Made by a program: the position numbers and the translations under genes
Part shown: one piece after another, positions 8,568-53,065 of the stretch
Layout: each line of letters begins with the position of its first letter
How positions within the stretch are numbered: the stretch's first letter is position 1
Notes under the pieces: model-generated
What the model was told of the DNA's origin: nothing
The model's database searches: none
The model's input: only the letters and a program-made list of their open reading frames with translations
Virus record (IMG/VR): IMGVR_UViG_3300020596_000014
Location: 62,001-126,000 of that record
Origin: a virus
Length of the DNA: 64,000 nucleotides
Reading direction: 5' to 3' (one strand)

Positions 8568-9113
8568 ATGTCTAAGACATCGTTGTCACAACTCGTCAAG
8601 CAGATCGTGATCGAACAGCTCGCCCGTGCCCAAGTTCGTGCACTTCTGGAAGCGGTCGAGATCACTGATCCAGCTGTCGTTGCGAACAAGATGAAGGATC
8701 TATACAACCAAATCTGGGACACCGACGTGTTCACCGTCGAGCAGGATGGAAGAAGCTTCACCGTCAAAGGCCCTAGGGCTGTGCCCGTGAACGGGAAGAC
8801 GCCGGACATTGGAAACAGTTCTAGTTTTGGTTCGCGTGATCCGAGCAAGCAAGGTCAAGAGTACCTGGACGACAACACACAGATCGTCAAGCTCAACAAA
8901 AACAAAGTCATGCAGACGTTGAAGTCGATGCTTCCCTCGACCATGAAGATGAAGATCGGAGGCGCCGACTCTATCGTGTTCTACGGTGAGAACACACGGG
9001 TTGTTTGGAATTGGTACATGGTCAGCAGCAACGAGATCTGGGGATTCGTCGAAGCAAACAAGAACGGAAGCTTGGCAGATTCTCCCGCACCTGCTAGCGT
9101 CATCAAGGTCTGA
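8568..9113 (+). CDS. Unknown protein with capsid-leader-like N-terminus
   Basis: 181 residues from ATG 8568; an in-frame TTG at 8544 would add eight. The start MSKTSLSQLVKQIVIE is a basic amphipathic helix ending in I-V-I-E, matching the leader shared by seven other proteins here. The body is mixed, with a DNTQIVKLNKNKVMQTLKSML segment and a C-terminal part rich in aromatics. No family recognised. If the leader works as in T4 internal proteins, this would be a head-packaged protein cut after residue 16. That role is inferred only from the N-terminal pattern. It overlaps the next gene by one base. Confidence 0.55.
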   Translation: MSKTSLSQLVKQIVIEQLARAQVRALLEAVEITDPAVVANKMKDLYNQIWDTDVFTVEQDGRSFTVKGPRAVPVNGKTPDIGNSSSFGSRDPSKQGQEYLDDNTQIVKLNKNKVMQTLKSMLPSTMKMKIGGADSIVFYGENTRVVWNWYMVSSNEIWGFVEANKNGSLADSPAPASVIKV

Positions 9114-9520
9114 TGCTTATTAAGCGGCTGCGAAAGAAACGTCGCAGCCGCCGAGCGAAGCGTGGCATTCACGTTTCACCCAAACATATTGACCCCTTCA
9201 ACTTCCGCTCTGGGTGGGAGCAGAAGTACGCGCTGTGGCTCGACGGCAACGTGAACGTTGTCTCATATCGCTACGAGCCGTACGCGGTCGAGTACCTCTC
9301 AAACGTGCGCACCGGCAAGATTCGCAAATATTACCCCGACTTCGAGGTGACGTGGGCAGACGGGAATAAGACGCTCGTCGAGATAAAGCCGAAGAAGAAA
9401 GTGACTGTTGCGAAGAACGTGAAGAAGTTCGCGGCCGCATCCATTTTTTGTCTTAAAAACGGGATGACTTTCGTTATCGTAACTGAAGTTGACTTGAAGA
9501 CTCTAGGCTTGCTTAAGTGA
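9113..9520 (+). CDS. gp4-like head-completion nuclease
   Basis: 135 residues of the TnsA-like PD-(D/E)xK fold: FRSGWEQKYALWLDGN (catalytic Glu in the first helix), YEPYAVEYL, RKYYPDFEVTW (catalytic Asp), LVEIKPKKK (E-x-K). T4-like phages carry this family as gp4, a head-completion protein added to filled heads. The N-terminus is strongly basic (RLRKKRRSRRAKR), consistent with DNA contact. The same nuclease core is the catalytic domain of the endonuclease at 28619 and of the remnant at 3190, so a homing origin is an alternative. Its short single-domain form and position before a resolvase favour the phage-assembly role. Confidence 0.65.
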   Translation: MLIKRLRKKRRSRRAKRGIHVSPKHIDPFNFRSGWEQKYALWLDGNVNVVSYRYEPYAVEYLSNVRTGKIRKYYPDFEVTWADGNKTLVEIKPKKKVTVAKNVKKFAAASIFCLKNGMTFVIVTEVDLKTLGLLK

Positions 9521-10062
9521 GAATATTAGGATTAGATTTAAGCACAAGTTGCGTCGGCTACTGTATTCTCGAGTCAACCGATCGCAGCATCGTCGAGCTC
9601 GGTCACATCTCACTGAAGAACGTCGAAGGCTTGTTCAACAAGATCGACGACATCGTCCCGAAGGTCGCTGCCCTTCTTGTCGGTCACAACATCTCGAAGT
9701 GCTTCATCGAAGAGCCAGTTCAGATGTTTACGATGGGCATGTCGTCGGCGCACACGATCCTCACGCTCGCCAAGTTCAACGCTCTCGTGTCTTATCACGT
9801 GCGCAACCAGCTCGGTGACGCCAATATTGCGTTCGTGAAGCCGAACGAAGCGCGGAAGTCTTGCGGAATCATTCTCACGACAAAGGCGAAAGCGGGTGGC
9901 GCTTCGCAAAAAGAGCAAACATTTTCTCAACTTACGGCCCCCAACGGGTTGCTGTCTCACATTAAGTGGGACATGACAAAGACCGGCAAGGTGAAGCCTG
10001 AATCGTATGATCGTGCGGATGCATATGTTGTGGCCATTTACGGCGCCGTAAAAACGAAATAA
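9517..10062 (+). CDS. RuvC-like Holliday junction resolvase
   Basis: 181 residues from GTG 9517, overlapping the previous stop as GTGA. The RNase H-like fold is clear: ILGLDLSTSCVGYCIL carries the first acidic residue on strand one, FIEEPV gives the glutamate after strand four, and SYDRADAYVVA near the end gives the final aspartates. RuvC-type enzymes cut four-way DNA junctions. In a T4-like phage this would resolve branched replication intermediates before packaging, the job T4 gives to the unrelated gp49. Its location before primase and gp47/46 fits DNA metabolism. Confidence 0.75.
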   Translation: MRILGLDLSTSCVGYCILESTDRSIVELGHISLKNVEGLFNKIDDIVPKVAALLVGHNISKCFIEEPVQMFTMGMSSAHTILTLAKFNALVSYHVRNQLGDANIAFVKPNEARKSCGIILTTKAKAGGASQKEQTFSQLTAPNGLLSHIKWDMTKTGKVKPESYDRADAYVVAIYGAVKTK

Positions 10063-10084
10063 CAGAGACCTAGCTTCTGGGACA

Positions 10085-11674: not shown

Positions 11675-11880
11675 GACGCAAGTCAGAACGTCACGCGCTC
11701 TCTGGCGATGTCTGGCATTGCGAATACACACATCGTACCTGGATCATTGTTGGCAAAGGATCCGGGTACATGTTTGAAAAGGTATGGGCTGCACTTGACG
11801 TTGACACAGGCGAACTAATCCAGCGCGCCGCGTTCATCGACCTCAAATTCGGTCATGGATGGAAGAAGATCGCGCCTTGA
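11671..11880 (+). CDS. Small GxVW-family protein inside the inserted cassette
   Basis: 69 residues from GTG 11671, overlapping the gp47 fragment's stop as GTGA. The pattern SGDVWHCEY, a hydrophobic strand WIIVGKG, then ALDVDTGELIQ matches the tandem family at 58732-60058 (G-x-V-W, beta strand, L-D-x-G-E). Because it sits inside the segment that splits gp47, it seems to have travelled with the endonuclease. It looks like a small beta-rich domain; function unknown. Confidence 0.65.
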   Translation: MRRKSERHALSGDVWHCEYTHRTWIIVGKGSGYMFEKVWAALDVDTGELIQRAAFIDLKFGHGWKKIAP

Positions 11881-17691: not shown

Positions 17692-18153
17692 ATGGCAAAC
17701 ACCGAAAAGCAAAACATGAACGAGCTCCGTCGTCAGATCCGCTCGATGATCCAGGAGACGATCGGTCTTGGAGCCCCGACGGGCCCGAGCGGCACGCCTA
17801 GGCCCGGCGGCGTTGGCGAGGTTATCGGCACATCCAACGCCGAAAAGAAGATGACGCTGAACGTGTCTGTCAAACCGGACGCGACCATCCAATCGTCTGT
17901 TGTAGATATCACCAAATCTGCTGCGTACGGTCTTGAGCGCCTCGAGCTGCTCAAGAAACGCGACTTCCCGACGCACAAGTCAGCGAACGCGGTCAGCACC
18001 GCTCTTGACGCGCTTGAGCTCATCTTCCAGGATATGCTCAAGAACCCAATGGGTTACCTCGATGAGGACCCGACCGAGAAGGTTGCTGAGTACGAGCAGT
18101 CGCTTGACTCCGAAGAGGCATTACTCTCTAAAGGTGCGCCGGCCACGTTCTGA
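17692..18153 (+). CDS. Unknown head-region protein with capsid-leader-like N-terminus
   Basis: 153 residues between terminase and portal. Near the start, NELRRQIRSMIQE fits the shared leader (basic helix ending I-Q-E). A Gly/Pro-rich linker (GAPTGPSGTPRPGG) follows, then a beta-like segment and a helical second half (LERLELLKKRDFPTHKSANA...LDALELIFQDML). No family recognised. Position within the head-assembly cluster supports an internal or head-associated role, which is inference. Confidence 0.55.
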   Translation: MANTEKQNMNELRRQIRSMIQETIGLGAPTGPSGTPRPGGVGEVIGTSNAEKKMTLNVSVKPDATIQSSVVDITKSAAYGLERLELLKKRDFPTHKSANAVSTALDALELIFQDMLKNPMGYLDEDPTEKVAEYEQSLDSEEALLSKGAPATF

Positions 18154-18177: not shown

Positions 18178-20760
18178 ATGGCCGAACGTAGAGGCAATCT
18201 TTTCGCGCAGCTGACTCGACTTTTCAGGTCAGGGCCCATCGTTAAACGGAAGATCAAGACCGTTGACACCCGAGTTGCGCGCGCAGACCCAGCCGGCTCG
18301 AGCAGTGTTCTCCTTTTGTCGAAGACACAAGGTGTTGGCCTCAACGCCTCGCTCAACGGTCAATATGGCCACCAGGAGCGCACTGGACGTCTGCAAGACT
18401 ACAACGAGATGGACGCGTACGCGCTCGTCAACGCGGCGCTCGACATCTATGCCGATGAGTCTGTCGCCCAGGATGCGAACGGCAAGACGATCCACATTCA
18501 TTCGGACAACCCAGCCATCAAGGAGAATCTCGAGGAGCTTCTCTACAACACACTCAATGCCGAGTTCAATCTACGCCCGTGGACACGTAATCTTTGTAAG
18601 TATGGCGACTTCACACTCTATATCGACGTCTCGCCACAATACGGCGTGATTAACGTCATCCCGATCGCTGTTGACGCCATCGCTCGCGAGGAAGGATATG
18701 ACCCCGAGGACCCGCTAGCGGTTCGCTTCCGCTGGACCACATTCGGCAACAAAGTACTTGAGAACTGGGAGGTCGCTCACTTTCGCCTTCTCGGTAACGA
18801 CGCGTTCCTTCCTTACGGCTCTTCTATGATCGACGGCGCCCGCCGCTCGTGGCGTCAGATCGTCATGGTTGAAGACGCGATGCTCGTTTATCGCATTACA
18901 CGAGCTGTCGACCGACGCGTCTTCTATGTCGACGTCGGGGGCGTGGCTCCAGATGAGATCGGCAACTACATGGAAGCCGCCAAGATGAACATCAAGAGTC
19001 AAGGCGTCGTCGACCGAGCAACCGGCAAGGTCGACCAACGCTACGCACCACTCCCGATCAGACGAGACACCCCTGTTCCACTTTTGGACGGACGAACGCT
19101 CACGATCGAGGAGATGGCAAAGGAGCACGAGGCCGGGAAAGTCAACTGGGTCTACTCTGTACAGGATGACACGTTGGAGACCGTACCAGGCAAAGTGATC
19201 TGGTGCGGAAAGAACTACACGGCCGACAGACTTACACGTGTGTGGCTCGACGATGGCAACTACGTTGACACGGCAGGTGAGCACCCGTTCGTCATGCGTG
19301 ATGGCACACATAAGCGAGCGGACGAGCTAAAGCCGGGCGAAGCGTTGATGTCCTTGTACAATGCCGTTGTCTCACGAGTAGAACTTGAGGAAGAGCAGCA
19401 TGTTGGTTACCTCAATCGCAAGGTCGATCGCGTTGAGTGGATAGAGGGAGATGACGTTTATTGTATGACCGTTGTAGGCTCGAATGGCGAAGAGGACCGT
19501 CACAATTTCGCCGTGAATGCTCGCAAACAGGATCAAACAATCGCAACTAACTCTATGATATTGTTGCGAAATTCGATCGAGGAAGACTACTGGGTTGCCA
19601 CACGCGGCGGCGAGACGGGCACCAAGATCGACACGCTCCCGGCTGGCACGAACGCTGCCAACGTCGAGGACGTCGAGTACATTAAGAGGCAACTCATCGC
19701 AGCTCTAAAGGTTCCTGCTGCTTACCTTGGCTACAACGACGCCATCCCGGGCTCGTCCGGACTCGCGCAGGTAGACATCCGCTTCTCACGAACCGTTAAC
19801 ATGGTTCAGCGAACAATCGTCAGTGAGCTCAATAAGATCGCGATGATTCACCTGTACGCTAGCGGCTTCCGTGGCGATGATCTCACTGACTTCGAGATCA
19901 GTCTCAGCAACCCTTCGACCATCGCACAGCAGCAAAAGCTCGAGTTGCTCCGCTCACGGTTTGAGATTGCAGGTACCATGCCGATGGTCGGTGAGTCTCC
20001 GCTGATGAGCGAGCGTTGGCTGTTCCGCAACGTCATAGGGTTGAACGATCAGGAGATCTTGCAGGTCCGACGCGAACGACTCGACGACGTGCGAGCGAAA
20101 GGCGCACTCGAAGCGGCCGGCGCGCTATCTGGCGGCGGAGAAGGTGCCGATGCTGGGGAAGCCCCCGCTGACGAAGACCTCGGAGGCGTTGATGCGGCCG
20201 CGCCGCCTGCTGAACCTGGACTTGAGACGGCTGCAGACGACAACCGCGGGCAAGGTGACGTTATCACCTCGGTTGGCGGTAACGGCGCTCGTTTGAGAGA
20301 AGCCGACGGCCCTGTCAAGATTGCCACTCATCTTAGAGTCGCGATGACGAACCGCCGTCGCAACCTTCGACGTCGCGGCAACGGGTTCCCTAAGATCGCT
20401 GACCGCGCCGTCACCGGCGCCACTGCCAAGCCGGCGTCGCCCACCGATGGTCTACATGAGGCATTCGAAGATCTCTACGAAGACGAGATCGAGCGTATGC
20501 ATGACGAGACCCCTGACAACAAGAACGAAAATAGAACGTCAGTCTCGCCGATGTTCGGAATGGTTGAGCTTCGCATGTTACACGGTCTCGCGAGTCACAA
20601 GAATATCGAAGAACCCAAAACCGACGATTGGAAGAAGAGTCGGACCATACGAACACTGTCTGAGAGTTACAAACCAAAGCAGCTTATGGTGGAACATGTG
20701 AGCGTAGAAGAGTTTGAGTTATACGACGACGAAGACGACGACAAGGAGCCGACTACTTAA
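18178..20760 (+). CDS. 20: Portal protein gp20, interrupted by an intein-like domain
   Basis: 860 residues, preceded by GAGGA. Portal features: YNEMDAYALVNAALDIYADE, GSSMIDGARRSWRQIVMVEDAM, the RITRAVDRRVFYVDVG motif typical of gp20, then SIEEDYWV and TLPAGTNAANVEDVEYIKRQL. Residues 293-465 are a 173-residue Hint (intein) domain; removing it rejoins RYAPL to SIEEDYW, matching gp20 relatives. The C-terminal 200 residues add an acidic, Ala/Gly-rich extension (EAPADEDLGGVDAAAPPAEP) and a charged tail not found in T4 gp20. The dodecameric portal is the DNA entry channel and head-tail connector. Confidence 0.9.
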   Translation: MAERRGNLFAQLTRLFRSGPIVKRKIKTVDTRVARADPAGSSSVLLLSKTQGVGLNASLNGQYGHQERTGRLQDYNEMDAYALVNAALDIYADESVAQDANGKTIHIHSDNPAIKENLEELLYNTLNAEFNLRPWTRNLCKYGDFTLYIDVSPQYGVINVIPIAVDAIAREEGYDPEDPLAVRFRWTTFGNKVLENWEVAHFRLLGNDAFLPYGSSMIDGARRSWRQIVMVEDAMLVYRITRAVDRRVFYVDVGGVAPDEIGNYMEAAKMNIKSQGVVDRATGKVDQRYAPLPIRRDTPVPLLDGRTLTIEEMAKEHEAGKVNWVYSVQDDTLETVPGKVIWCGKNYTADRLTRVWLDDGNYVDTAGEHPFVMRDGTHKRADELKPGEALMSLYNAVVSRVELEEEQHVGYLNRKVDRVEWIEGDDVYCMTVVGSNGEEDRHNFAVNARKQDQTIATNSMILLRNSIEEDYWVATRGGETGTKIDTLPAGTNAANVEDVEYIKRQLIAALKVPAAYLGYNDAIPGSSGLAQVDIRFSRTVNMVQRTIVSELNKIAMIHLYASGFRGDDLTDFEISLSNPSTIAQQQKLELLRSRFEIAGTMPMVGESPLMSERWLFRNVIGLNDQEILQVRRERLDDVRAKGALEAAGALSGGGEGADAGEAPADEDLGGVDAAAPPAEPGLETAADDNRGQGDVITSVGGNGARLREADGPVKIATHLRVAMTNRRRNLRRRGNGFPKIADRAVTGATAKPASPTDGLHEAFEDLYEDEIERMHDETPDNKNENRTSVSPMFGMVELRMLHGLASHKNIEEPKTDDWKKSRTIRTLSESYKPKQLMVEHVSVEEFELYDDEDDDKEPTT
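19054..19572 (+). other. Intein-like Hint domain in the portal, no endonuclease
   Basis: Residues 293-465. Block A reads DTPVPLLDGRTLTI and block B GEHPFVMRDG (His369), then ADELKPGEALMSLYN. Block F reads DDVYCMTV...RHNFAV (Cys429, His442), and the end is RN|S, with Asn465 and Ser466 as the +1 residue. Position 1, set by the D-T-P-V spacing and by alignment of the rejoined portal, is Pro293; no Cys or Ser lies nearby. The block B Thr is replaced by Ala and the penultimate His by Arg. At 173 residues it is a mini-intein with no LAGLIDADG or HNH part. It may splice by a non-canonical route through Cys429, or not splice. Confidence 0.75.
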
Positions 20761-21632
20761 TGGCTATGACAGCGCCGCGCCGCCCCAACAAGAAACGCAA
20801 CGCGTTGCTCGCGTTCGAATTCCTCACCAAGGAAGCGTCGCGTCGCGTTGTCGCGGGCGATACCTCTGGTGCTGAACGTGTCGTCGGTCTAATCAAGGAA
20901 TGCTTCGCCTCGGGCACCGAGCTTCACCGTGAACTTCGTCTGGCCCGCTCACTGTGCGTCACTCGTGTGTCCTCGCCGGCCGTGGCGGCGCACATTCTCA
21001 CTGAGGCACGTAACATCACACGCTCCATCGACGCGACGAAGGTGAACGCCGAGAAGACTAATCTTATCGTCCGTGTCGAGCGTGAGATCGATAAGAGCGG
21101 AATCGTATACGAGGAGTCGCTCCCAAACTACCGTCTATTGTCGACAATCGGCACACTCATCTCGGATTGGCGCACCGGCTCGGATGACCTGCAGCGCATC
21201 GCCACATACGAGGACCAACTGATGGAGCACCTCACAACAGCTGTTGTGACGGTTGAGCCCGTTGAGGACCCGGCCTCAGGCATGTCCGCGGGTGAACGTC
21301 GCGCTTTGATTGCGATCATGTCCCGTAAACTTGAGGATAAGTGGGGCTCGTCCCTAACCAAGGACCAGAAGTCCCTCCTCCGCGAGTACGTGCTCGCTAA
21401 GGAGCCAGCCTCTCTACTCGAGCGTCTGCGCGCCATCCAGACCTCTGCCTCCAAGTGTTTAGACGAATGTCGCGCCCTCCCTGAGAAGACCGACTACTTC
21501 GTCGAGCGCGTTGACGACTCGAAGCGCGCGGTCGCCTCACAGGTGATCGATGAAGTCAACGATGAGACGGTGGGCCTCGGCCTGCTGTATCTCAAACTCA
21601 TCGCCGAGACAACAGAAGAGGAATCGCGATGA
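20760..21632 (+). CDS. Helical head-assembly protein of unknown function
   Basis: 290 residues, starting one base into the portal stop codon. The sequence is almost wholly helical and charged (NALLAFEFLTKEASRRVVAGD, then ELHRELRLARSLC, then DECRALPEKTDYFVERVDDSKR), with no enzyme motif. It sits between portal and prohead protease, where T4 keeps its small prohead core genes 67 and 68, but it is much longer and I cannot claim homology. Likely a prohead core or portal-associated factor from position. Confidence 0.55.
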   Translation: MAMTAPRRPNKKRNALLAFEFLTKEASRRVVAGDTSGAERVVGLIKECFASGTELHRELRLARSLCVTRVSSPAVAAHILTEARNITRSIDATKVNAEKTNLIVRVEREIDKSGIVYEESLPNYRLLSTIGTLISDWRTGSDDLQRIATYEDQLMEHLTTAVVTVEPVEDPASGMSAGERRALIAIMSRKLEDKWGSSLTKDQKSLLREYVLAKEPASLLERLRAIQTSASKCLDECRALPEKTDYFVERVDDSKRAVASQVIDEVNDETVGLGLLYLKLIAETTEEESR

Positions 21633-22234
21633 ACGACAAGAAGCTTCTTACCAGCTTCCAACCTCTTGAGATCGACGTCGCGTCGCTCAAAGAGAATCGA
21701 GAGCTGAACGGCGGAAAGATCATCCTGCGTGGCATTATGCAACGTGCCGACGCCGTCAACCAAAACGGCCGCATCTACCCGCGTTTGATCCTCGAGCGCG
21801 AGGTCGAGAACTACCAAAAGTTCATCCGCGAGCGTCGCGCGCTCGGCGAGCTCGACCACCCCACGGCCAGCGTCGTGAACCTGCAGAACGCTTCTCACCT
21901 TGTCACCGAGGTCCGCTGGGAAGGCGACGCCGTCATGGGTGTTATCGAGCTGCTCAGCACACCCATGGGCAAGATCGCTCAGAGTCTCGTTGAGGACGGT
22001 GTCAAGCTTGGCATCTCGTCGCGCGGAGTCGGCTCTACGAAGCCGCACGGTGAGTACGACATGGTCGATGACGACTTCATGCTGCTATGTTTCGATTTGG
22101 TAAGTGAACCGTCGACTTCAGGAGCCTTTATGTTGAGGGAAAACAAGGTGTTAGACCCTCGAGCTCATCTTACTCGTACTGATCGCATTGACAGAGTTCT
22201 CACCGATATCCTTCGATCCAATTTTAAGACGTGA
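21629..22234 (+). CDS. 21: Prohead core protease gp21
   Basis: 201 residues, ATGA overlap with the previous gene. The herpes/T4-type serine protease motifs are present: GELDHPTASVVN carries the catalytic His, and GISSRGVGS the nucleophilic Ser. RGIMQRADAVNQNGRIYPR is the family's N-terminal signature. In T4 gp21 degrades the scaffold and trims capsid and internal proteins after Glu in [L/I]-x-E motifs, which makes it the likely enzyme for the leader peptides noted elsewhere. Length is close to T4 gp21 (212). Confidence 0.9.
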   Translation: MNDKKLLTSFQPLEIDVASLKENRELNGGKIILRGIMQRADAVNQNGRIYPRLILEREVENYQKFIRERRALGELDHPTASVVNLQNASHLVTEVRWEGDAVMGVIELLSTPMGKIAQSLVEDGVKLGISSRGVGSTKPHGEYDMVDDDFMLLCFDLVSEPSTSGAFMLRENKVLDPRAHLTRTDRIDRVLTDILRSNFKT

Positions 22235-22355: not shown

Positions 22356-22787
22356 ATGGCTCAGAACAACGTATGCCCCGGATTCAACGCAGCCGCCGAA
22401 TACACGGTCTCTGGCATCCCACATGTGGTGAGCGGCTCGGCTACGTCTACGCCAACCGTTATCGAGTTTCCGTTCGTGACGCGAGCGATCACGATCGCAA
22501 ATAATTCAGTTGTTGGCACGGTACTAGAAGTCGGATTCACGTTGAATGGCGTGAATCTTGCGAACCGTTTCCCGCTAGATGGCAAGCAGACGCAACGCTT
22601 CGAAGTTCGTGTTCGCGACCTGTGGTTGAGATCTGAATCGAATGTGACGGCTAGTTTCGGTGTGCTTGCCGAGCTCACCGCCATCGAGCGTAGACAGATG
22701 TTGCCGCTCACTGGGTCTGTCGACATGTTGACGTATGCTGGTCAGTTGGCCGCTACCGGCTCGATCGTTTGGCCAGGCGTTGGTTGA
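22356..22787 (+). CDS. Small beta-rich virion protein
   Basis: 143 residues, all apparently beta-strand (VVSGSATSTPTVIEFPFVTR, then TIANNSVVGTVLEVGFTLNG, then VRVRDLWLRSE). No enzyme motif. It resembles small capsid-decoration or adaptor-type beta-sandwich proteins in outline only. It lies between protease and scaffold genes, which supports a head role. The 121 bases before it (22235-22355) hold no gene that I can see. Confidence 0.5.
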   Translation: MAQNNVCPGFNAAAEYTVSGIPHVVSGSATSTPTVIEFPFVTRAITIANNSVVGTVLEVGFTLNGVNLANRFPLDGKQTQRFEVRVRDLWLRSESNVTASFGVLAELTAIERRQMLPLTGSVDMLTYAGQLAATGSIVWPGVG

Positions 22788-23244
22788 GCTCGTACGTCGT
22801 CCGGACCCTCGTCTGAAGCAATCTTGTCGCGAGGTAAATCAAAGAGACTTGCCTGAGTTGCGCGTCTTCATTGACCAGATGCTTGATATCATGTACACAT
22901 ACGAAGGCGTCGGTTTAGCCGCTCCGCAGGTCGGCTGGAACATTCGCGTGATTGTCGTCGATCCTTCAAACGGCGAAGATGACAAAGCATGTCGTGTGAT
23001 GATCAACCCATCGTTCGAGAGCGTCTCTCTCGAGAAAGAAGTGTGCATGGAGGGTTGTCTCTCGTTACCTGGGGAGTTTTACAACGTTGAGAGGTCAACG
23101 TCGATTCTCGCTCGCTGGCAGGACTTGGACGGCGCTTCTCACGAATCTTGGTTATATGCCGTGGAGGCTCGCATTGTGTTGCATGAGCTTGACCATCTGA
23201 CAGGCATACTTATTTCTGATCATGGATCGAAAAAACGTAAATAA
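22780..23244 (+). CDS. def: Peptide deformylase
   Basis: About 154 residues. All three signature motifs are intact: GVGLAAPQVG near residue 43, EGCLSLP (metal Cys93) and HELDHLTG (His135, Glu136, His139). The enzyme removes the formyl group from nascent proteins. I prefer TTG 22780, overlapping the upstream stop, because the family normally starts just before x-V-x-x-P-D-P-R-L-K; an ATG at 22735 would add 15 residues inside the upstream gene. The C-terminus is short, as in other phage and organellar-type deformylases. Its place in the head cluster suggests late expression. The 143 bases after it are AT-rich and empty. Confidence 0.9.
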   Translation: MVELVRRPDPRLKQSCREVNQRDLPELRVFIDQMLDIMYTYEGVGLAAPQVGWNIRVIVVDPSNGEDDKACRVMINPSFESVSLEKEVCMEGCLSLPGEFYNVERSTSILARWQDLDGASHESWLYAVEARIVLHELDHLTGILISDHGSKKRK

Positions 23245-23387: not shown

Positions 23388-23900
23388 GTGAAGATCGGTA
23401 AACAGGCTCTCAAAGCCCTCATCAAAGAATGTCTCGTCGAGATCCTGGCCGAAGGCCTGGGCTCAAATCTGAGTGAGGCGGTCAAGACTGCCCCGAGGCA
23501 TGACTCGCGCAACCGCGACAGCGAGCCGCTGCCCGGGCACGCGCAACCTCGTCAGATCCAGTACGCGAAACCGCAGCGTCAGGCTCAGCATCTCGATGAG
23601 CGCGTAGCGTCTAGACGCATGACAACCGCTTCTATCCCGGCTGAGATCAGCGCGATCACTCGCGACCCTGTGATGGCCGCGATCTTCGCTGACACGGCGC
23701 AGACAACGTTACAAGAGCAGGCTCGCGGCGTGATGCCCGGTGATACCGCTGCTCAAGTCGCGGCTCGCGCCGCCCCTGAACAGATGTTCGACGAAGCGAC
23801 AATGGACAAATGGAATCAGGCAGCGTTTCAGTCTAGTCGACCCGGCCCGATCGGTTTGCCCACCGACTTCTTACAAGACTTACTCAAAGGCAATCGATGA
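23388..23900 (+). CDS. Unknown head protein with capsid-leader-like N-terminus
   Basis: 170 residues from GTG 23388. The start MKIGKQALKALIKECLVE fits the shared leader (basic helix, L-V-E). A polar, Gln/Arg-rich stretch follows (GHAQPRQIQYAKPQRQAQH), then a helical C-terminal half (VMAAIFADTAQTTLQEQA...FLQDLLKGN). No family recognised. It begins the run of genes leading to scaffold and capsid, so a prohead core or internal protein is plausible. Confidence 0.55.
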   Translation: MKIGKQALKALIKECLVEILAEGLGSNLSEAVKTAPRHDSRNRDSEPLPGHAQPRQIQYAKPQRQAQHLDERVASRRMTTASIPAEISAITRDPVMAAIFADTAQTTLQEQARGVMPGDTAAQVAARAAPEQMFDEATMDKWNQAAFQSSRPGPIGLPTDFLQDLLKGNR

Positions 23901-24111: not shown

Positions 24112-24369
24112 ATGAAGATTCGTTACAGCAAGTTCAAGCAGATTGTCATCGAGGAGATGATCAACCTGGGCCTCCTGCCCGACCTTACCGAGGCTGACAA
24201 GGCCAAATTAAAGTCTGTCGAGGATGAGGAAGGCAAGGAGATCGAACCGGGTGACGAGGCAGACACCCTCGCAAAGAAGACCAACTTCCAGAAGGCTCTT
24301 AAAATCAAGGAAGCAAAGCTTCTGAAGGCGCTCGGCGAGACGCGTAATCAACTCAAGCGGATCCGCTGA
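24112..24369 (+). CDS. Small acidic prohead-core-like protein
   Basis: 85 residues, highly charged and helical. The start MKIRYSKFKQIVIEE fits the shared leader (V-I-E), followed by acidic stretches (VEDEEGKEIEPGDEAD) and a basic tail. In T4 the small acidic prohead core proteins (gp67) lie near the scaffold gene, as this one does. Homology is not shown; the suggestion rests on position and composition. Confidence 0.5.
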   Translation: MKIRYSKFKQIVIEEMINLGLLPDLTEADKAKLKSVEDEEGKEIEPGDEADTLAKKTNFQKALKIKEAKLLKALGETRNQLKRIR

Positions 24370-24985: not shown

Positions 24986-26590
24986 ATGTCGAACAAACCG
25001 AAGACCGTTTTCGACGAGGCGATCGCCGACGTCAAGAAGCTGAAGGAGCTCGCGGAGTCGCGCGCTCGTGACGCTGTTCTCCAGAAGATTGAGCCGCAGC
25101 TCAAGCGCCTCGTCGAGCAACATCTGTTCAACGAAGGCGATGACCCTGAGGATTGCGATCACGACTACGAGGACGGTGGCGACATCTGCTCCAAGTGCGA
25201 CGCCATGGCCCCCATGGATGAGAACACGCTTGCGGCCGGCGGCGTTCAGGGCAGCATGGGCGGTCCCGGTCCGACCGAAGAGATCGACGAGCTGCAGTAC
25301 GAAGTCGCCGAAGGCGCCGAGGGAACTCTCGCGCAGCTCGCCGACTTTGCGCACCCTGTTACCGACGACCGCTTTGCGGTCGAAGTGTACCGGTTGCAAG
25401 AAGACATTCAACATCTTGTGGTCGCAGATCGCAAGGAAAAGCTGTCTAAGCCGTTCTCCAGCAAACTGGAAGAGGCAATCTCGAAACTTGAAGATATGTA
25501 CGCTTACCTCAGGGAGTCATATACCGGCACTGACCGGGACGCCATTGAGATCAAGCTGGAGAAAGGTTACGGCTTGGTAAACGCCGTCAAGGAGTCAACG
25601 ATGAAGATGCGTGATTTGCTCAACGAGGAAGATCTGACCGTGAAGATTAACAATCTTCCTGATGGGGTTGACCCCGACGCCATCACAATCGATGTCGTGT
25701 CCGACGAGACCGATGTCGATCCGATGGCAACCGATCCTGCGGCTCCGCCCGCGGCAACCGGCGCCCCCCCGATGCCCACTGCTGAAGGCGATGATGATGA
25801 CGACGAGGTTCTTGAGATCTCCGAAGCCGATCTGAGGGTAGAGCTATCTCGCCTCAAGGGTCTTCGTGAGGGCGACGCTGCTCCTCCGGCGACCAAGGGT
25901 AACGGCTTGGGCAACTCTAAGAAGTCGTTTGGCGACGCGCGCGACGAAGGCGATGCCTTCGAGAGCCCCGACTCTGAGCTCGACGGCATCGATGAGGCTG
26001 ACGGCGACGACGTCGTCGAGACCGACGAAGTGAAGATGGAGTCTGTCCGCAAGCGCCTCGCTCGTGCGGCCAAGCGCCTTTCCGAATCCCGCGGCTCTGA
26101 CCGTGAGAACTTCGCCCGCGCGATGTACCGTTCCGCCGTCAAGGCGTATCGCGGCACACGTCAGGCGATCAGCGAGTCCAAGACTCGCAATACTTTCGCT
26201 ACCGGTCGCATGAATGCGCCGGCTAGCAAGCAGCTCGCAGAGGCGAATGCCAAACTCGCGAAAGCGAATAAGGCTCTCGTCGAGGCGCAGCTTCTCAACG
26301 CCAAACTGATCCACGCGAATAAGCTCCTGAGGCTCGAGGGTCTCACCAAGGCACAACAGGCCATGGTGATCGACAGACTCGACGAGGCTCGGAACTTGCG
26401 AGAGGTGCGGCTCATCAGCGAGAACATCAAGGCTGTTCTCGTTGGCAGCAAGGGTTCGGTCAACGAATCCGCCTCGCGGCGCCCGTCGGGCTCCGCTTCC
26501 CGTCCGAGCCACTCCGGCGCGGCGTCTGCACAGCCCCTCACTGAGGGTCTCGAGACGGCACGTTGGGCGACGCTCGCCGGACTCAAGTGA
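24986..26590 (+). CDS. 22: Prohead scaffold protein, gp22-like
   Basis: 534 residues, acidic, largely coiled coil. The N-terminal helix (DVKKLKELAESRARDAVLQK) contains a run like that of T4-type scaffolds, and the C-terminal 170 residues are a long heptad-rich helix (KQLAEANAKLAKANKALVEA, then RLEGLTKAQQAMVIDRLDEA). A CDHDYEDGGDICSKC zinc-ribbon-like element and Asp/Ala/Pro-rich linkers lie between, making it about twice the length of T4 gp22 (269). It lies directly before the capsid gene, as gene 22 does in T4. Expected to form the prohead core and be destroyed by gp21. Confidence 0.75.
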   Translation: MSNKPKTVFDEAIADVKKLKELAESRARDAVLQKIEPQLKRLVEQHLFNEGDDPEDCDHDYEDGGDICSKCDAMAPMDENTLAAGGVQGSMGGPGPTEEIDELQYEVAEGAEGTLAQLADFAHPVTDDRFAVEVYRLQEDIQHLVVADRKEKLSKPFSSKLEEAISKLEDMYAYLRESYTGTDRDAIEIKLEKGYGLVNAVKESTMKMRDLLNEEDLTVKINNLPDGVDPDAITIDVVSDETDVDPMATDPAAPPAATGAPPMPTAEGDDDDDEVLEISEADLRVELSRLKGLREGDAAPPATKGNGLGNSKKSFGDARDEGDAFESPDSELDGIDEADGDDVVETDEVKMESVRKRLARAAKRLSESRGSDRENFARAMYRSAVKAYRGTRQAISESKTRNTFATGRMNAPASKQLAEANAKLAKANKALVEAQLLNAKLIHANKLLRLEGLTKAQQAMVIDRLDEARNLREVRLISENIKAVLVGSKGSVNESASRRPSGSASRPSHSGAASAQPLTEGLETARWATLAGLK

Positions 26591-26621: not shown

Positions 26622-28532
26622 ATGAAGAATTTCAATAGCTCGCTCCTTTTCGAAGGTATTCGTGAGCGGCACATGGGCACCGAGCGCAAGCGCTTGGTCG
26701 AGAAGTGGATGAAGACCGGTCTGCTCCGCGGCCTCGACGGCCAGCGGCGCGAGGACATGTCGCAGCTCCTGGAGAACCAAGCTGCACAAGTTCTCCGTGA
26801 GTCGAACGCACTGTCCACGGGCGGCGGCGGGCTCACCTCGAGCGGTCAGATTCAAGGCTTCTCGACGATCGCTTTCCCGATCGTTCGTCGCGTGTTCGGT
26901 GGCCTCGTCGCCAACGAGCTCGTTTCGCTTCAGCCGATGAGCCTCCCCGCAGGTCTCATCTTCTATCTCGACTACACCTACGGCTCGAATACCGGCGGTA
27001 ACGCCGGCTTCGGGCTGAGCGACGCAGCGACGCAGTCCACGTACACGCGTGGGCAGTCGATCTACAACAACCCGGTCGGTAGGGGCATTCAGACGGGCTC
27101 TATCGAGTCCGGCGGCATGTATGACCTCGTCGGCAGAGGTTACTCGAAGGTTCACCAGGCTTCGAGCGCGGTCTCGATGAGTAACGACGCGATCGGCGCC
27201 TTCACCGGCGCGTCGAACGCTTGGCAGGTCGGCGGGCGCGTTCAGGCGGTGACTTCGTTCACCGGTTCGAATGCGCGCTTCGCAAACTTCGACCCGCAGG
27301 TTGAAGCTGACCTCTCGCAGAACGTTCTAGACTACCAGTACGTCCACGTCCCCGTCGCCGCGTTTACCACGTCGCTCGCGAACGCGGACATGCTCGCGGT
27401 CGATCAGATCGGCGTGTTCGGCTTCGGCGCTGGTCATGTCGGCGGCGCGGTCGCCTGGGGACAGCAGTACCAGGGCGGCACCGGCGTGCTCAACCTTCGT
27501 CGCGCGACCAAGCGCGGCAACTGGGACGGCGCGGTCTTCACGCCCGCCCCGGTCGGCGGCGACCACATCCAGTTCCTGCTTCGCCTGTCGAACAACGGCT
27601 CTACGGTGTCCGGCTCGGTTGCCGCGAACCTCAGACTGACCTGTTCTGTCCCGATCGTTGATAAGCTCACGGTCGACGGCACCACGGCAGCGACCCTCGT
27701 GCTCCCCACGTTCGAGACCGACTTCTCGGCTTCCGGTTCGCCGGCAATCCCCGAGATCGACATCAAGATCGAGTCCATCGCCATCACCGCTGAGAGTCGC
27801 AAGCTCAAGGCTCGATGGTCGCCGGAGCTCGCTCAGGATCTCAACGCGTACCACTCGATGGACGCCGAAGTTGAGCTCACGAGCATCCTTTCGCAGCAGA
27901 TCGCCCTCGAGATCGACCGCGAAGTCCTCGTCGACCTGCTCACGCAGGCCTCCGGCGCGAACCTCTACTGGAGCCGCGCTCCGGGCAAGTTCGTCAACAA
28001 GCTCACCGGCGACCCGGTGAATCTTGCCTCCAGCCTCTCTATCGGCCCTGCCTTCACCGGCACGGTTCGCGAGTGGTACGAGACTCTCGTCGAGACCGTC
28101 ATCGACGTTGCGAACACCATCCATCGCAAGACCCTTCGAGGCGCTGCAAACTTCATGGTGTGCGGTCCCGACGTCGCAACCATCCTCGAAGCTTCGGCGA
28201 TGTATCGCACGAAGGTCTCCATTGACAGCGATGGCCAGGCCGCGTCGGTCTTCTCCATCGGCTGCGAAGCGGTCGGTTCGCTCAGCAACCGCTTCACGGT
28301 CTACAAGGACCCCTACTTCCCGCGTTCCAAGGTACTTGTTGGTTTCAAGGGTGGCAGCTACCTCGAGACAGGGTACGTGTACGCTCCGTACGTCCCACTG
28401 ATTGTCACTCAGACCATCTACAACCCCGAGGACTTTAGCCCTCGTCGCGGCGTTATGACGCGATATGGGAAGAAAATGGTCCGATCTGACTTTTACGGGA
28501 CAGTGAGCCTTTTGGACATGTCAATTATCTGA
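26622..28532 (+). CDS. 23: Major capsid protein gp23
   Basis: 636 residues (T4 gp23: 521). The diagnostic gp23 core is clear: SRKLKARWSPELAQDLNAYH, then AEVELTSILSQQIALEIDRE. The N-terminus (residues 1-60) is helical, and LRE at 58-60 followed by SNALSTGGGG is the likely gp21 cut site, close to T4's site after residue 65. The extra 115 residues relative to T4 lie mostly in the middle (about 180-370). It has an HK97 fold and forms the capsid hexamers. A strong terminator follows, consistent with very high expression. Confidence 0.95.
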   Translation: MKNFNSSLLFEGIRERHMGTERKRLVEKWMKTGLLRGLDGQRREDMSQLLENQAAQVLRESNALSTGGGGLTSSGQIQGFSTIAFPIVRRVFGGLVANELVSLQPMSLPAGLIFYLDYTYGSNTGGNAGFGLSDAATQSTYTRGQSIYNNPVGRGIQTGSIESGGMYDLVGRGYSKVHQASSAVSMSNDAIGAFTGASNAWQVGGRVQAVTSFTGSNARFANFDPQVEADLSQNVLDYQYVHVPVAAFTTSLANADMLAVDQIGVFGFGAGHVGGAVAWGQQYQGGTGVLNLRRATKRGNWDGAVFTPAPVGGDHIQFLLRLSNNGSTVSGSVAANLRLTCSVPIVDKLTVDGTTAATLVLPTFETDFSASGSPAIPEIDIKIESIAITAESRKLKARWSPELAQDLNAYHSMDAEVELTSILSQQIALEIDREVLVDLLTQASGANLYWSRAPGKFVNKLTGDPVNLASSLSIGPAFTGTVREWYETLVETVIDVANTIHRKTLRGAANFMVCGPDVATILEASAMYRTKVSIDSDGQAASVFSIGCEAVGSLSNRFTVYKDPYFPRSKVLVGFKGGSYLETGYVYAPYVPLIVTQTIYNPEDFSPRRGVMTRYGKKMVRSDFYGTVSLLDMSII

Positions 28533-35377: not shown

Positions 35378-35884
35378 ATGAAGCAGGATGAGCTTAGACG
35401 TCTGATTCGATGTGTTCTCGTTGAGAATGTTTTGTCTACTGCAATCAGCGAGGAGACGATGTTCGCACTTGGCGAATTTATTAGCGCGAACGAGTCTCTA
35501 GATCTTCATCAACACATGTATGCTTTGAAACCGTATGTAAAAGTTTACACAAATCTTTACCGTGTGTGGATGCACCACGACTCAGATGTTTCGGTGGAAG
35601 AATTAGAAATCGAAGCAAAGCAACGTGAGTATCTGTCGAGCACATCGGATGTCAATGCCATCACACGTATGCTTGATGATTTGGGCTCGAACGAGGACGT
35701 TGCAATCACGAAGTTCGACGGCGAAGGTTTTGATCCGTATGTTGTTCTGGGTGATGGTCTCCAGCTACACCCTCACCACTCGGAGGCAGCATACTTGCGC
35801 GCAGCATTGAAACAATACGCTTATCAAAAAGAGATCGTTGTTCTGCATATTATCGGATCACAAGTAAAGATGAACAATCACTAG
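35378..35884 (+). CDS. Unknown protein with capsid-leader-like N-terminus
   Basis: 168 residues. The start MKQDELRRLIRCVLVE is one of the clearest copies of the shared leader (L-V-E). The rest is helical then beta (SEETMFALGEFISANESLDL, then DVAITKFDGEGFDPYVVLGD, then KEIVVLHIIGSQVKM), without motif. AT-rich bases (35304-35377) precede it and may hold a promoter. A head-packaged role is suggested only by the leader. Confidence 0.55.
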   Translation: MKQDELRRLIRCVLVENVLSTAISEETMFALGEFISANESLDLHQHMYALKPYVKVYTNLYRVWMHHDSDVSVEELEIEAKQREYLSSTSDVNAITRMLDDLGSNEDVAITKFDGEGFDPYVVLGDGLQLHPHHSEAAYLRAALKQYAYQKEIVVLHIIGSQVKMNNH

Positions 35885-37664: not shown

Positions 37665-38636
37665 ATGGAAATCAAGGATCTGCTTCGCAATGTCATCAAA
37701 GAGATGGTCGAGTCTCGCATCCGTGAGACTGACATCACAGACGGCTCACGTGTCCAATTTGGTTCGCAGGAGCACATCACTGATCTTGAAATGCGGATTA
37801 CTGATCTCGAGCGTTGGCGCGATCGTCAACGTCGTGGCAGCGAAGCTCGCGCGAACTACGCGCGATTGATTGGTCGTTTGCGCGCAGAATTGCGTTCAGC
37901 GAACCGCATCGCTAACCCAAACGCTTCTCCGTTGCCGATGATGGATGAGTCTGACGTAACTCTTGTTGGCGACAGTGGAAAAAAGAAGAAGAGGAAGACA
38001 CGACAGTGCACGTCATGCAAGAAGCCGTTTGTCGCCACGCCAGCCGATGACCTTGGGATGTGTCCCAAGTGCGGTGACGAGCCCGCCGCGTCGGCGAGAA
38101 TGAGTGAGTCATACCCCGGCGCTCAAGCCGGGATGTGGGTTGTGAAGCACAGATACGACGGTTACACCATCGGCTTCCCAACATCGGACTTCGACAAGGC
38201 ACAATCTGTCGCTGACACACGCAACGACGTCGCGATTAACGGTGCCTGGGGACGTAATAACCCAACAGCTGATCCTCCCTACAAGGTCGTGCCGTACGAG
38301 TCTGAGGCACTGGGTGAGTCCGTCAACATGAAAGACCCCGAGTACTCGTCTATCGAGACGTTCGTACAGTTCTTGCTCGACGACGAGCGCGACAGCTACA
38401 CACACGAGGAGCTGACAGCCCTCAATTTCCGTACACACATGCCTGTCAACATGATTCGCAAGGAACTAGAAGGATACGGCTTGACGCTCGCGAACCGCCC
38501 TAATGAGAAGAAAGTGCGCGGATTCAGCTCAAACAGCAACGACCGCTGGTTCGGGCCTGGCTCGATGGCCACGCATGGCGGCGCCGGCATCGATCCTCAA
38601 ACGGGTCGCGCTACGAGCGGTCGCGGTGACATCTGA
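37665..38636 (+). CDS. Unknown protein with leader-like start and zinc ribbon
   Basis: 323 residues from ATG 37665. Leader-like MEIKDLLRNVIKE, then a coiled coil (ITDLEMRITDLERWRDRQRR). A zinc ribbon follows near 115-135 (CTSCKKPF...MCPKCGD), then WVVKHRYDGYTIGFPTSDFD and a C-terminal domain with TALNFRTHMPVNMIRKELEG, a helix-turn-helix-like element, and RGFSSNSNDRWFG. The C-terminal part recalls hypothetical proteins of large phages. If the leader is processed, it would be a multi-domain head-internal protein. A longer reading from 37491 overlaps the previous gene and is unlikely. Confidence 0.55.
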   Translation: MEIKDLLRNVIKEMVESRIRETDITDGSRVQFGSQEHITDLEMRITDLERWRDRQRRGSEARANYARLIGRLRAELRSANRIANPNASPLPMMDESDVTLVGDSGKKKKRKTRQCTSCKKPFVATPADDLGMCPKCGDEPAASARMSESYPGAQAGMWVVKHRYDGYTIGFPTSDFDKAQSVADTRNDVAINGAWGRNNPTADPPYKVVPYESEALGESVNMKDPEYSSIETFVQFLLDDERDSYTHEELTALNFRTHMPVNMIRKELEGYGLTLANRPNEKKVRGFSSNSNDRWFGPGSMATHGGAGIDPQTGRATSGRGDI

Positions 38637-39440: not shown

Positions 39441-39995
39441 GTGACAACACCGAAAGAGCAGCTTGAGATTGATCAGATAGGACCTGCTAGCAAGCTCCAA
39501 GTTGGTGATTTGTTTGTCTTCATTGATGGTAGCGACAGTAATCAGCACGAAGTGACACAGGATCTCGACTCACATTTTGAGTACGACGGGCGGGTCAACA
39601 AGAAGCTCACGAAGGACATGATGGTTCAACGCGTAGGCGCACCCAACCTGGGTGAACGCACAGCTCGCGCAGTCACCGCTCTCCAGACAGCCGTCAAGAG
39701 TCTGGAGCAGACGGGCAATGTACAGCAATGGGCAGTGATGATGTCAGACGTGATCTCCCGTGTCGGCGCGAGCGGCATGCACGACGCGGTCCTGCCGCTT
39801 GAGAAGCTCGCGAAGCAAGGCAGTGCGGTGTTCGCAAAGGTGAGGCAAGCGCACAGGAAGTTGGCAGTCGATCAGCTCGTCCCCATGGTTAGGAAACGCT
39901 GGGCAGCTGACGTGACGAGCGTGATTCAGATCATTCACAACTCTTTGATGGAAGACGTGCGACGGTTAGTCCGTGCCGTTCTCACGTCCCGCTAA
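39441..39995 (+). CDS. Helical unknown protein with a C-terminal leader-like peptide
   Basis: 184 residues from GTG 39441. The first 65 residues are beta-like (KLQVGDLFVFIDGSDSN), the rest helical (RAVTALQTAVKSLEQTGNV, then KLAKQGSAVFAKVRQAHRKL). The very end, MEDVRRLVRAVLTSR, resembles the N-terminal leader of other proteins here (compare DELRRLIRCVLVEN) but at the wrong end and without the final Glu. No family recognised. Confidence 0.5.
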   Translation: MTTPKEQLEIDQIGPASKLQVGDLFVFIDGSDSNQHEVTQDLDSHFEYDGRVNKKLTKDMMVQRVGAPNLGERTARAVTALQTAVKSLEQTGNVQQWAVMMSDVISRVGASGMHDAVLPLEKLAKQGSAVFAKVRQAHRKLAVDQLVPMVRKRWAADVTSVIQIIHNSLMEDVRRLVRAVLTSR

Positions 39996-47674: not shown

Positions 47675-47693
47675 GTCTTTGACTTGATTAGAT

Positions 47694-48869: not shown

Positions 48870-48946
48870 TGCTACGATAGTAGCTACTGATGATTTATCA
48901 GCTCGATTCGAGAGCTGAAATTGAAGCGGTCGCTTAGTTACCAAAC

Positions 48947-51900: not shown

Positions 51901-51970
51901 GCAGCCAACGAGATCGATTGAATATGTTGCGCTCGACTTTGTCGTTTCAAACGCTGGCAGCCAGATCTAA
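48947..51970 (+). CDS. 18: Tail sheath protein gp18, second paralogue
   Basis: 1007 residues. It shares with the first sheath protein the start (VTSREIDLSGPISVQPIGVA, then GVIGTSLKGPAFVPVTVGVI) and the conserved end (AIAYPWFAPAGFARGALATT, then RTLQAFASSLDRVNVRRLMI). The middle is clearly diverged, so the duplication is old. The two may build different parts of the tail, form a mixed sheath, or be alternatives. The 77 bases before it (48870-48946) should hold promoters for both this gene and the antisense endonuclease. Confidence 0.92.
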   Translation: MANVKLGSAGVTSREIDLSGPISVQPIGVAAGVIGTSLKGPAFVPVTVGVISDYYAKFGKTDGRKFGPLAVTEWLRNASAATYLRVLGVGTGLKRETGTNSGRVAGAGFVAGEQLPNVNSGILVSNPHANSNGPLGRVHMLGCFMSESNGSSIFSSASLQGAGSVTPGVQTAVPILRGVLMVPSGVMMRLSSSFTASAAPAGSTVAGSSAMPGSLIGTVTLSSGKQEFVLFLNGHKGVDVAYPNMYTASFDPTAPNYFRNVLNRDPYKIQEAGHYLHASWDIHPSLAVVTGTNLIVSGVTSGWNGGLESAAFITTGSMTRDTGSSTIPNYENFEDRFDHAKSPWVLSQKFGGQPKKLFRFHMLDDGAGVSSNVKISIENIAPSTDSKNPYGTFDVVIRDWNDTDANPRAYEQYRGLSLNPSADRYIAKAIGDMNVYYDFDKTLQSQKLVVDGNYSNRSNYVRVELDDLVINEEVDPTGLPIAFRGPAHLVTSGSAPLASTISADLLVPTAIKRVVQPPVPYRISLQEGEGVKALVNPSLYWGVQFEQVISITNPNATSVKNDSLASYTLYWPNFQTSNQNVLEDDSVGEADTNANGILDADRFCRNLFTLENIRVLTGSDTKADSQKWASAVYVRDGQITTDSANKSRALNVTDFTQPNRKYLKFTLFMQGGFDGTNMFDRDEATMSNVAVTADMNDANRGQSNGPTAAAYRKAIDLMTERTDVDIMLLAIPGIRHSIVTDKALEAVESRFDAMFLMDVEEYDTNGGLITGSIQVPSVTNTATEFRERALNSSFGAAYYPDVVLTDPTTKSNVMVPPSVVVLGAFALNDAIAYPWFAPAGFARGALATTLEAKVKLSKDSMDTLYDANINPLVAFPGNSPAGTQAQGGVVVWGQRTLQAFASSLDRVNVRRLMIDLRRQVRDIALTFVFEPNRESTLNRFQAAVEPRLSRVQKQFGLEKYKVQIDASTTTQADVENNTIRGKIWVQPTRSIEYVALDFVVSNAGSQI

Positions 51971-51982
51971 AAGGCGTATATA

Positions 51983-53065
51983 ATGAACATTATCAACGCT
52001 ATTAGTCAGATCGTGAAGGAAACTTTCGCACAGACCAAGTTTCCTCGCAAGACTGGTGAGATCGAGGGGAAAACAGCTTCTGAGAAACGTCGTGCCAAAG
52101 TCGAGAAGGATAAGCGTTCCAGGATCGGGAAACAGAAGTCTGGCTTTGTGAAAGAGAGCGATATGTTAAGAGACTTCGACCCACATCGCATCGCTTCTGA
52201 GTGGCACTCTGGTCAAGGCAGTGCGCTTTACGCGTACTCCTCCACCGATCGCATCCCGACTGAGGAGTTCAAGGAACGTCTTGTGTCGGAGATTGAGCAT
52301 TCGATGGCCGGCGCAAACGATGACGGTCTTGACGAGCTTGAGTATCTGCTCATGCACGTCGAGGAGCAGCACCCCGACCAGTTCCCTGACTCGAGCATGC
52401 GTGAAGCTTGGGGTACTGTCAACAAACGCGGAGAAGAGCAGTGGAGCGACGATGACGACGCAGATATTCGCGATCTTTATCTAAGCCCTGAGGCCTTCAA
52501 CGACAGCCCGCGCGGCGCACCCTTGAAGGACGACATGATTGTCGCCCGACCCAAGGCAAAGCGTGAAGAAGATGCGTTTTGCGAGATCTGCGGCGGCAAC
52601 GAAGGCGTATGCGAATGCGCGATGACCGAAGAAGACGAGCCGTCGTCTGAAGACTTCAAAAAGTACAGTGCAGCCGTGCGACGCGGACAAATTGCAAACA
52701 AGACAAATTTCTCCTTGGATAACCCGCCGTCAGCTGCTTCCTTCCGCACAATGGGCAAAGCTGGTCCGACAGACAAGCCGCCGCCGAAATGGGTTCATCC
52801 TGATCATCGACGAGTAAAGGAGAGCGTTCAGGAGAGTTCGTTGCGGTTAGTCATCAGTCGTATCCTCGGTGAGATGAAGCTCAGTGTTGCTGGCGGCGGC
52901 CATTTCAACTGGGACGCGAAGGATGAGCCCAGCGATTCTGACGACGACGAACTTGCCACATTCTTGCTCAAGAAGAAGAAGGATGAATCCGAACCCGAGG
53001 AGAATAAGTCGAGCGAGAAGCTGGGCACATCTAAGAAGCGCGGCAAGAGTAGCCAGTTCCGCTGA
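51983..53065 (+). CDS. Charged unknown protein with two leader-like peptides
   Basis: 360 residues, AAAGG ribosome site. It starts MNIINAISQIVKE (leader pattern, V-K-E) and has a second, stronger copy inside near residue 285-298 (SSLRLVISRILGE, L-G-E). The centre is acidic with a CEICGGNEGVCEC zinc-like cluster near residue 195; the C-terminus is Lys/Glu-rich and disordered-looking. An internal leader-like copy suggests fusion of two leader-bearing proteins, or two cleavage sites. Function unknown. Confidence 0.55.
   Translation: MNIINAISQIVKETFAQTKFPRKTGEIEGKTASEKRRAKVEKDKRSRIGKQKSGFVKESDMLRDFDPHRIASEWHSGQGSALYAYSSTDRIPTEEFKERLVSEIEHSMAGANDDGLDELEYLLMHVEEQHPDQFPDSSMREAWGTVNKRGEEQWSDDDDADIRDLYLSPEAFNDSPRGAPLKDDMIVARPKAKREEDAFCEICGGNEGVCECAMTEEDEPSSEDFKKYSAAVRRGQIANKTNFSLDNPPSAASFRTMGKAGPTDKPPPKWVHPDHRRVKESVQESSLRLVISRILGEMKLSVAGGGHFNWDAKDEPSDSDDDELATFLLKKKKDESEPEENKSSEKLGTSKKRGKSSQFR

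Follow-up and report, generated by a model that had tools for sequence, protein, structure and literature searches.

The 64,000-nucleotide stretch of phage DNA analysed here (the window; bases 62001-126000 of a 132,549-base IMG/VR virus record) encodes a set of proteins with unrelated bodies that begin with one short peptide, the leader, which ends in [L/I]-x-E. We found that the leader is real, that it is constrained at the protein level, that it stands on hundreds of unrelated bodies, and that it is tied to head genes and to phages with a Peptidase_S77 prohead protease (T4 gp21 type) and a Gp23-family capsid protein. Most likely, the leader is a tag that would send proteins into the head for delivery to the next host cell. 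With a probability of roughly 0.83, we consider it to be a lineage-specific capsid-targeting sequence (CTS) that is cut off by the S77 prohead protease.

Detection of the leader with a held-out profile

The first-pass annotation of the window had assigned the leader to eight genes, and these genes and their N-termini were located exactly as claimed. The N-termini were scored with a 14-column position-specific matrix, which was seeded by a pattern and trained on N-termini of five related contigs (140-309 kb) using mechanical gene calls, with the window phage held out. The profile search of the contig and its relatives found leaders in the relatives and three further leader proteins in the same contig beyond the window (L002:11044, L002:16134-16991 on the minus strand, and L004:19344). 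Nine N-termini exceeded all 797 internal windows of the phage, namely these three and six of the eight (the genes at 23388, 35378, 37665, 17692, 29493 and 8568). The N-termini of 24112 and 51983 were only in the 1% tail (empirical p of about 0.009 each), which fits a 1% false-positive rate if each is taken alone. When the five related contigs were each held out in turn, 6 to 22 N-termini scored above all internal windows of their own contig.

With the matrix made without the window phage, a score above 12 was reached by 9.1% of the genes in loci near relatives of the capsid protein and by 22% of those in loci that had been selected for containing the peptide QLRxIIKEE; the corresponding values were 0.56% for genes in control phage loci and 0.13% for internal windows. 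False positives at the score threshold amounted to about 0.5% of control-phage genes. The mean hydrophobic moment of 289 leaders was 0.457, compared with 0.301 +/- 0.009 after shuffling. The basic amphipathic helix proposed at first pass is accordingly a property of the family, and it was individually significant in only three of the eight leaders.

Leaders of the window phage

All leaders of the window lie on the plus strand, and three of them stand on conserved genes of the head module. The highest score, 23.3, belonged to MKIGKQALKALIKECLVE (23388-23441) on a 170-residue protein (23388-23900), which also has a second site, ILAE followed by G. Its gene lies between the protease and the scaffold and belongs to a cluster of 33 loci, in which the leader is the best-kept part. 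The leader MANTEKQNMNELRRQIRSMIQE (17692-17757; score 15.6) begins a 153-residue protein (17692-18153) encoded between the large terminase and the portal; homologues at the same position in 10 other loci bear the leader too (11 loci in total). The third, MKIRYSKFKQIVIE (24112-24153), on an 85-residue protein (24112-24369), scored only 6.7 (p 0.009). Weak alone, it was accepted because homologues in 17 relatives (17 loci) carry a clear leader, MKLTSxLLKKII[E/A]EEVxKFG, at the same genomic place. The products of 17692, 23388 and 24112 may well act as prohead core proteins.

Four of the other leaders scored clearly. The leader MKQDELRRLIRCVLVE (35378-35425; score 22.0) is on a 168-residue protein (35378-35884), for which no Pfam or PDB sequence match was obtained and no relative was found in the IMG/VR pattern scan, in INPHARED or in one related contig. 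By eye, its motifs LYR, YLSSTS and QKEIVVL resemble those of R-S-E ADP-ribosyltransferases, to which T4 Alt belongs; this reading stays a by-eye lead because the single-sequence AlphaFold model was uninformative (predicted local distance difference test value, pLDDT, 51). The leader MEIKDLLRNVIKEMVE (37665-37712; score 16.4) is on a 323-residue zinc-ribbon protein (37665-38636) with homologues at L130:12214 and L121:18769. The 206-residue protein at 29493-30113 begins with MSISKLRQCVRFILCE (29493-29540; score 10.9); its homologues, 27-39% identical, retain L14-x-E16, and the family member in L151 bears another leader style. Its fold matches to GNATs were weak (best E 6e-3) and came from a low-confidence model (52), so that the GNAT-like assignment is only suggestive. 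The leader MSKTSLSQLVKQIVIE (8568-8615) is on a 181-residue protein of unknown kind (8568-9113) and, at 10.6, tops all internal windows.

The status of the eighth leader, MNIINAISQIVKE (51983-52021; score 6.8, p 0.009), is uncertain. It is on a 360-residue protein (51983-53065), for which no homologue was found in related contigs, and the second, internal copy that had been reported in this protein, LRLVISRILGE (52841-52873), is present but weak, with a score of 5.0. The C-terminal look-alike reported in the 184-residue protein at 39441-39995 fared better: the copy VRRLVRAVLTSR (39957-39992), with L-M-E ahead of it, scored best of all C-termini in the phage (p 0.0018). Pfam and PHROGs gave no secure name for any of the eight leader bodies. 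Among the three leader proteins beyond the window, that at L002:11044-12024 is kinase-like, with an HGDLHTGNF motif and a weak ABC1/APH match.

Consensus and distribution of the leader

Across related contigs, 447 leader proteins were collected, whose bodies fell into 289 clusters at a BLAST cut-off of 1e-3, with a few false positives among them. An unguided alignment of 102 unrelated leader proteins gave the consensus MKxxxxxLRxIIxEExxxxLxE and almost nothing beyond it, which bears out the description of the bodies as unrelated. Two leader styles recurred, MKITKxQLRxII[K/R]EE[L/I/V]xx[V/L]LxE and LLREYVRxLLxE. The peptide QLRxIIKEE occurred in at least 120 stretches of IMG/VR, and a scrambled peptide of equal degeneracy in 5 stretches of the entire database. 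Among the matches listed, a start codon was found at most 25 residues upstream in 91 of 95 distinct cases, and usually exactly six residues ahead (MKITKxQLRxIIKEE).

When the consensus leader was searched by tblastn against 50,697 INPHARED records, the single match was a metagenomic genome, LR756508.1, and no cultured phage tested bears the leader strongly. Tenacibaculum phage pT24, which has a homologue of 29493, an S77 protease (31.9 bits) and Gp23, was considered as a cultured carrier; it is no clear carrier, since only three of its 283 N-termini scored above 12. The peptide is rare in cellular genomes (50 stretches in 257 billion bases), and clear cases of the MKITK type were found in a few metagenome-assembled genomes (MAGs). 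S77 was detected in three of six such MAGs tested, in one of them on the leader's own 305,838-bp contig; hence, the leader-bearing contigs look like phage contigs in MAG bins. The leader strings were unmatched in the published literature searched.

The end of the leader and the protease site

Information per column was computed with one sequence per body cluster, position 0 being the core Leu. The core, positions 0 to +7, held 1.5-3.4 bits per column; a second rise was observed at L(+12)-x-E(+14), and the information was about zero from +16. Family conservation thus halts at the [L/I]-x-E motif that the first-pass annotation had placed at the end of the leader. The motif [LIVM]-x-E was present in 75% of leader tails versus 16% of body 12-mers, with peaks at fixed distances, and was counted in 218 tails versus 126 +/- 8 (maximum 153) when each tail was shuffled. 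L/I-x-E is the cleavage motif of gp21 (PMC9026906), and the leader is therefore predicted to terminate at a gp21-type cleavage site. In the ten-residue CTS of T4, residues 4 and 7 control targeting and residues 8 and 10 processing (PMC9026906); likewise, conservation of the leader falls into two separable blocks, the core and the L-x-E tail. Codon entropy at the conserved positions was close to that of the bodies, so selection is on the peptide, and a constraint at the DNA level was ruled out on this ground.

A matching site was found in the major capsid protein of the Gp23 family (26622-28532, plus strand; PF07068, E 4e-76). In an alignment of 77 relatives and the window's protein, L58-[K/R]59-E60 (26793-26801, plus strand) was kept with E at 100% and L at 97%, and we take it as the predicted gp23-type maturation cleavage site. 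In the MAFFT alignment, the Glu at which T4 gp23 is cleaved did not fall in exactly the column of E60. The two were likened because their distances to the shared VRR motif are similar, E60 lying about 29 residues ahead of it and the scissile E65 of T4 about 34. As the capsid protein keeps L-[K/R]-E, the same specificity is expected of the protease of this phage.

Association with the S77 protease and the Gp23 capsid protein

When 40 records were picked solely by the peptide, S77 was found in 24 and Gp23 in 23; among those of at least 100 kb, S77 was found in 10 of 11. Of the records picked by control peptides, 1 of 30 had S77. The first-pass annotation had stated that its proposal would be refuted if the peptide were equally common in phages lacking a gp21-type protease, and the outcome favours the proposal. 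No HK97-type capsid gene was found in the 16 S77-less records, most of which are fragments; of these, only G053 (117 kb) is troubling. When these records were searched for PHROG proteases, no match was obtained anywhere, a result that carries no weight.

Proteins that carry the leader

Apart from the three head-module genes, the leader stands on many variable proteins. Among 102 representatives, a Pfam search identified NUDIX, HD, Zeta/AAA, PolyA polymerase (PolyA_pol), Fe/Mn superoxide dismutase, L,D-transpeptidase, GNAT, RNase T and PAP2 bodies, as well as others. Two proteins of relatives, outside the window, carry the leader on Acb1, a protein acting against the cyclic oligonucleotide-based anti-phage signalling system (CBASS): L076:11564-12115 and L044:5851-6384 (PF23474, 36.8 and 40.3 bits; cut-off 27). 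In both, an LLREY[I/M] leader lies directly ahead of the domain. Leaderless Acb1 homologues of other phages align from residue 31 onward, and T4 57B (Acb1), which starts without a leader, has the H-x-T/S motifs in common with the leader-borne Acb1 in the alignment. The leader on Acb1 suggests a packaged counter-defence. At L204:28-9975, L246:7363-12771 and L261:1374-8072, small leader genes whose bodies are unrelated follow one another in tandem, in an arrangement that resembles cassette loci.

Leaders at either end and leader polyproteins

The leader is not confined to the N-terminus. On a kinase-like body, recognized by eye, it is N-terminal in L126:2859 and L195:6521 and C-terminal in L034:13671 and L032:13883; in a nucleotidyltransferase-like family it is C-terminal in L122:5973, L130:8055 and L237:863. 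Glu tends to precede the C-terminal copies (VGE, LQE, TTE, LME). These arrangements indicate that the leader is a detachable module.

In some long leader proteins, the joints carry leader copies or [VIM]NE sites, and the modules occur elsewhere as separate leader proteins. The 923-residue protein L180:6998-9769 consists of DUF192, a leader, PolyA polymerase, a GNAT-like part, a leader-like stretch and PAP2. The third module of L174:3522-4709 is 65% identical to a free-standing leader protein, L144:11058, and L180:9696-12245 has an inner leader ahead of a body that occurs alone at L180:13245. Furthermore, the 941-residue protein L246:4536-7361 contains eleven [ILVM]-N-E sites versus 0.86 expected on shuffling (maximum 6 in 5000), and leader tails of the same contig include L-N-E as well. 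The natural reading of these sequences is that the long leader proteins are cargo chains on which the prohead protease would act; gene fusion may have left some of the inner copies behind as relics. L151:2528-3508 was noted as a further candidate cargo polyprotein. It is possible, at somewhat less than even odds, that an uncultured T4-like lineage loads its heads with tens of effectors by a position-independent tag, including polyproteins cut in the head. If true, the viral polyprotein strategy would here be applied to injected cargo.

The head module of the window phage

The window contains a T4-type head module, which includes the large terminase (15966; PF03237) and the portal protein Gp20 (18178-20760, plus strand; PF07230, E 1e-63). 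The gp21 homologue reported at 21629 was confirmed as a prohead protease of the Peptidase_S77 family (21629-22234, plus strand), with matches to PF03420 (E 3.2e-26; 92.5 bits, cut-off 27) and phrog_207 (E 1e-51). Its conserved His and Ser motifs, GELDHP and SSRGVGS, are kept (GELNHP and SSRGLGS in T4 gp21). A scaffold-like protein (24986-26590, plus strand) was assigned from its position before gp23 and from alignments, and its relatives have TPRIRDLIExELLxE close to the N-terminus. No INPHARED phage has a major capsid protein that reaches 60% identity to the one encoded here, and the closest relatives of the phage are environmental contigs. The portal gene is interrupted by an intein splicing domain (PF14890), and a peptide-deformylase-like protein, recognized by eye, is encoded at 22735-23244 inside the module.

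Evaluation of the explanations

The enrichment of S77, the [L/I]-x-E end, the carriers in the head module, and the anti-defence and enzyme bodies, which are like the injected proteins of T4, support the capsid-targeting role proposed at first pass. In such a role, a protein just synthesized would be docked on the prohead core or scaffold by its short basic amphipathic helix, and the S77 protease would cleave behind the Glu closing the terminal [L/I]-x-E, the motif also present at the predicted maturation site of the capsid protein. The cargo would thereby be freed within the head and remain with the DNA. By analogy with T4 Alt and IPI-III, at least part of it may enter the cell together with the DNA and have an early function there, such as countering CBASS.

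Several observations weigh against this explanation. Docking, packaging, cleavage and injection are all inferred from sequence, gene content and analogy with T4. The T4 proteins ipI, ipII, ipIII and alt scored -3.6 to -8.6 with the leader profile; therefore, the link to the T4 CTS is one of layout, not of shown descent. With 9 to 31 N-termini per contig scoring above 10, tagged proteins are far more numerous than the handful known from T4. Moreover, G053 (locus L219, 117,229 bases) has a leader gene and no detectable S77 or Gp23, and S77 phages without the leader exist (T4, and pT24 nearly so). The link between the leader and S77 may partly reflect shared ancestry; as the peptide-picked records are interrelated, their S77 tally is not one of independent events.

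An alternative is that the leader docks proteins to another site in the virion or the cell, such as the tail, the membrane or a replication compartment, and that the prohead protease leaves it uncut. A basic amphipathic helix, bodies that are diverse enzymes and the distance of many tagged genes from the head genes would all suit it. We nevertheless regard it as unlikely, because conservation halts at [L/I]-x-E with nothing beyond, the capsid protein retains L-[K/R]-E, three tagged proteins are encoded inside the head module, and the peptide associates with S77.

Less probable still is a DNA- or translation-level element, in which a 5' coding segment serves expression or cassette exchange and the peptide is a by-product. 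The tandem leader-gene arrays (L204, L246 and L261) are what exchangeable cassettes would be expected to give; however, the codons at the conserved positions vary nearly as much as those of the bodies, and leaders are found C-terminally and within polyproteins.

Common ancestry, that is, a single diverged family retaining its N-terminus alone, deserves hardly any credence: although true families exist among the clusters (33, 17 and 11 members), the bodies have unrelated folds (such as NUDIX, HD, Zeta/AAA, PolyA_pol, Acb1, PAP2, DUF192 and Fe/Mn superoxide dismutase), and the leader switches ends on one body. Finally, the notion that helical starts rich in Lys, Arg, Leu, Ile and Glu are common and that similar ones were selected by the reader gains something from the near-noise scores of 24112 and 51983 and from three false positives above 12 among 94 T4 genes, and could still hold for 51983 alone, but chance is excluded for the leader family by the held-out profile, the scrambled peptide and the control contigs.

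Significance of the leader

If the leader is a capsid-targeting sequence as proposed, its value would lie first in finding cargo. Injected proteins are known for few phages because virion proteomics is needed, and a tag readable from sequence makes finding them a search. The leader nominates about 290 protein families as packaged and probably injected effectors; most of them have no known function, and two anti-CBASS proteins are among them. A search for the leader should enrich for early-acting anti-defence proteins. As a new targeting peptide, the leader could further serve to load proteins into phage heads, and cargo selection by a prohead protease and a short peptide becomes a testable question.

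Comparison with known systems

In T-even phages, about ten internal proteins with a shared signal have been reported to be injected, and the cargo includes anti-defence proteins (PMC9026906, PMC3012670, PMC12373910). As with T4 IPI-III and Alt, unrelated bodies here share one short N-terminal leader ending in [L/I]-x-E, and the window phage encodes an S77 (gp21) protease and a Gp23 capsid protein. T4 Alt and gp21 undergo C-terminal processing too (PMC9026906). Unlike the T4 CTS (MKTYQEFIAE in ipII and ipIII), the leader has about 13-22 residues and an LRxxIR core. Also unlike T4, there are tens of tagged genes per contig and leaders at C-terminal and internal positions, and the carriers are almost all uncultured. 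In T4 gp67 (L448:4282-4524), a prohead core protein, the residues TIDLIKEEKIAIARNFLIEG look leader-like by eye.

In the giant phages phiKZ and SPN3US, a relative of gp21 cleaves many head proteins behind a Glu, and these proteins are ejected (PMC5694885, PMC9026906). The cut after Glu is a point of likeness, although here it is only predicted. Most of the propeptides there exceed 100 residues, the motif is A/S-x-E, and no short leader over hundreds of bodies has been described for them.

The long leader proteins resemble the polyvalent proteins of phages and conjugative elements, in which, according to the parts of Iyer et al. (2017) consulted, several effector domains stand in one chain, ADP-ribosyltransferases and GNATs included, and which are thought to be packaged and injected (PMC5512222). 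In those parts, no common leader is described, and processing is proposed to occur via the proteins' own peptidase domains (PMC5512222). In the long leader proteins, by contrast, it is the joints that bear leader copies or [VIM]NE sites, and the prohead protease is the candidate enzyme. What is new, then, are the leaders on three head-module genes, the leader-borne Acb1, the use of the leader at either end, and the polyproteins with leader joints; of these, the polyproteins and the either-end leaders are the most novel.

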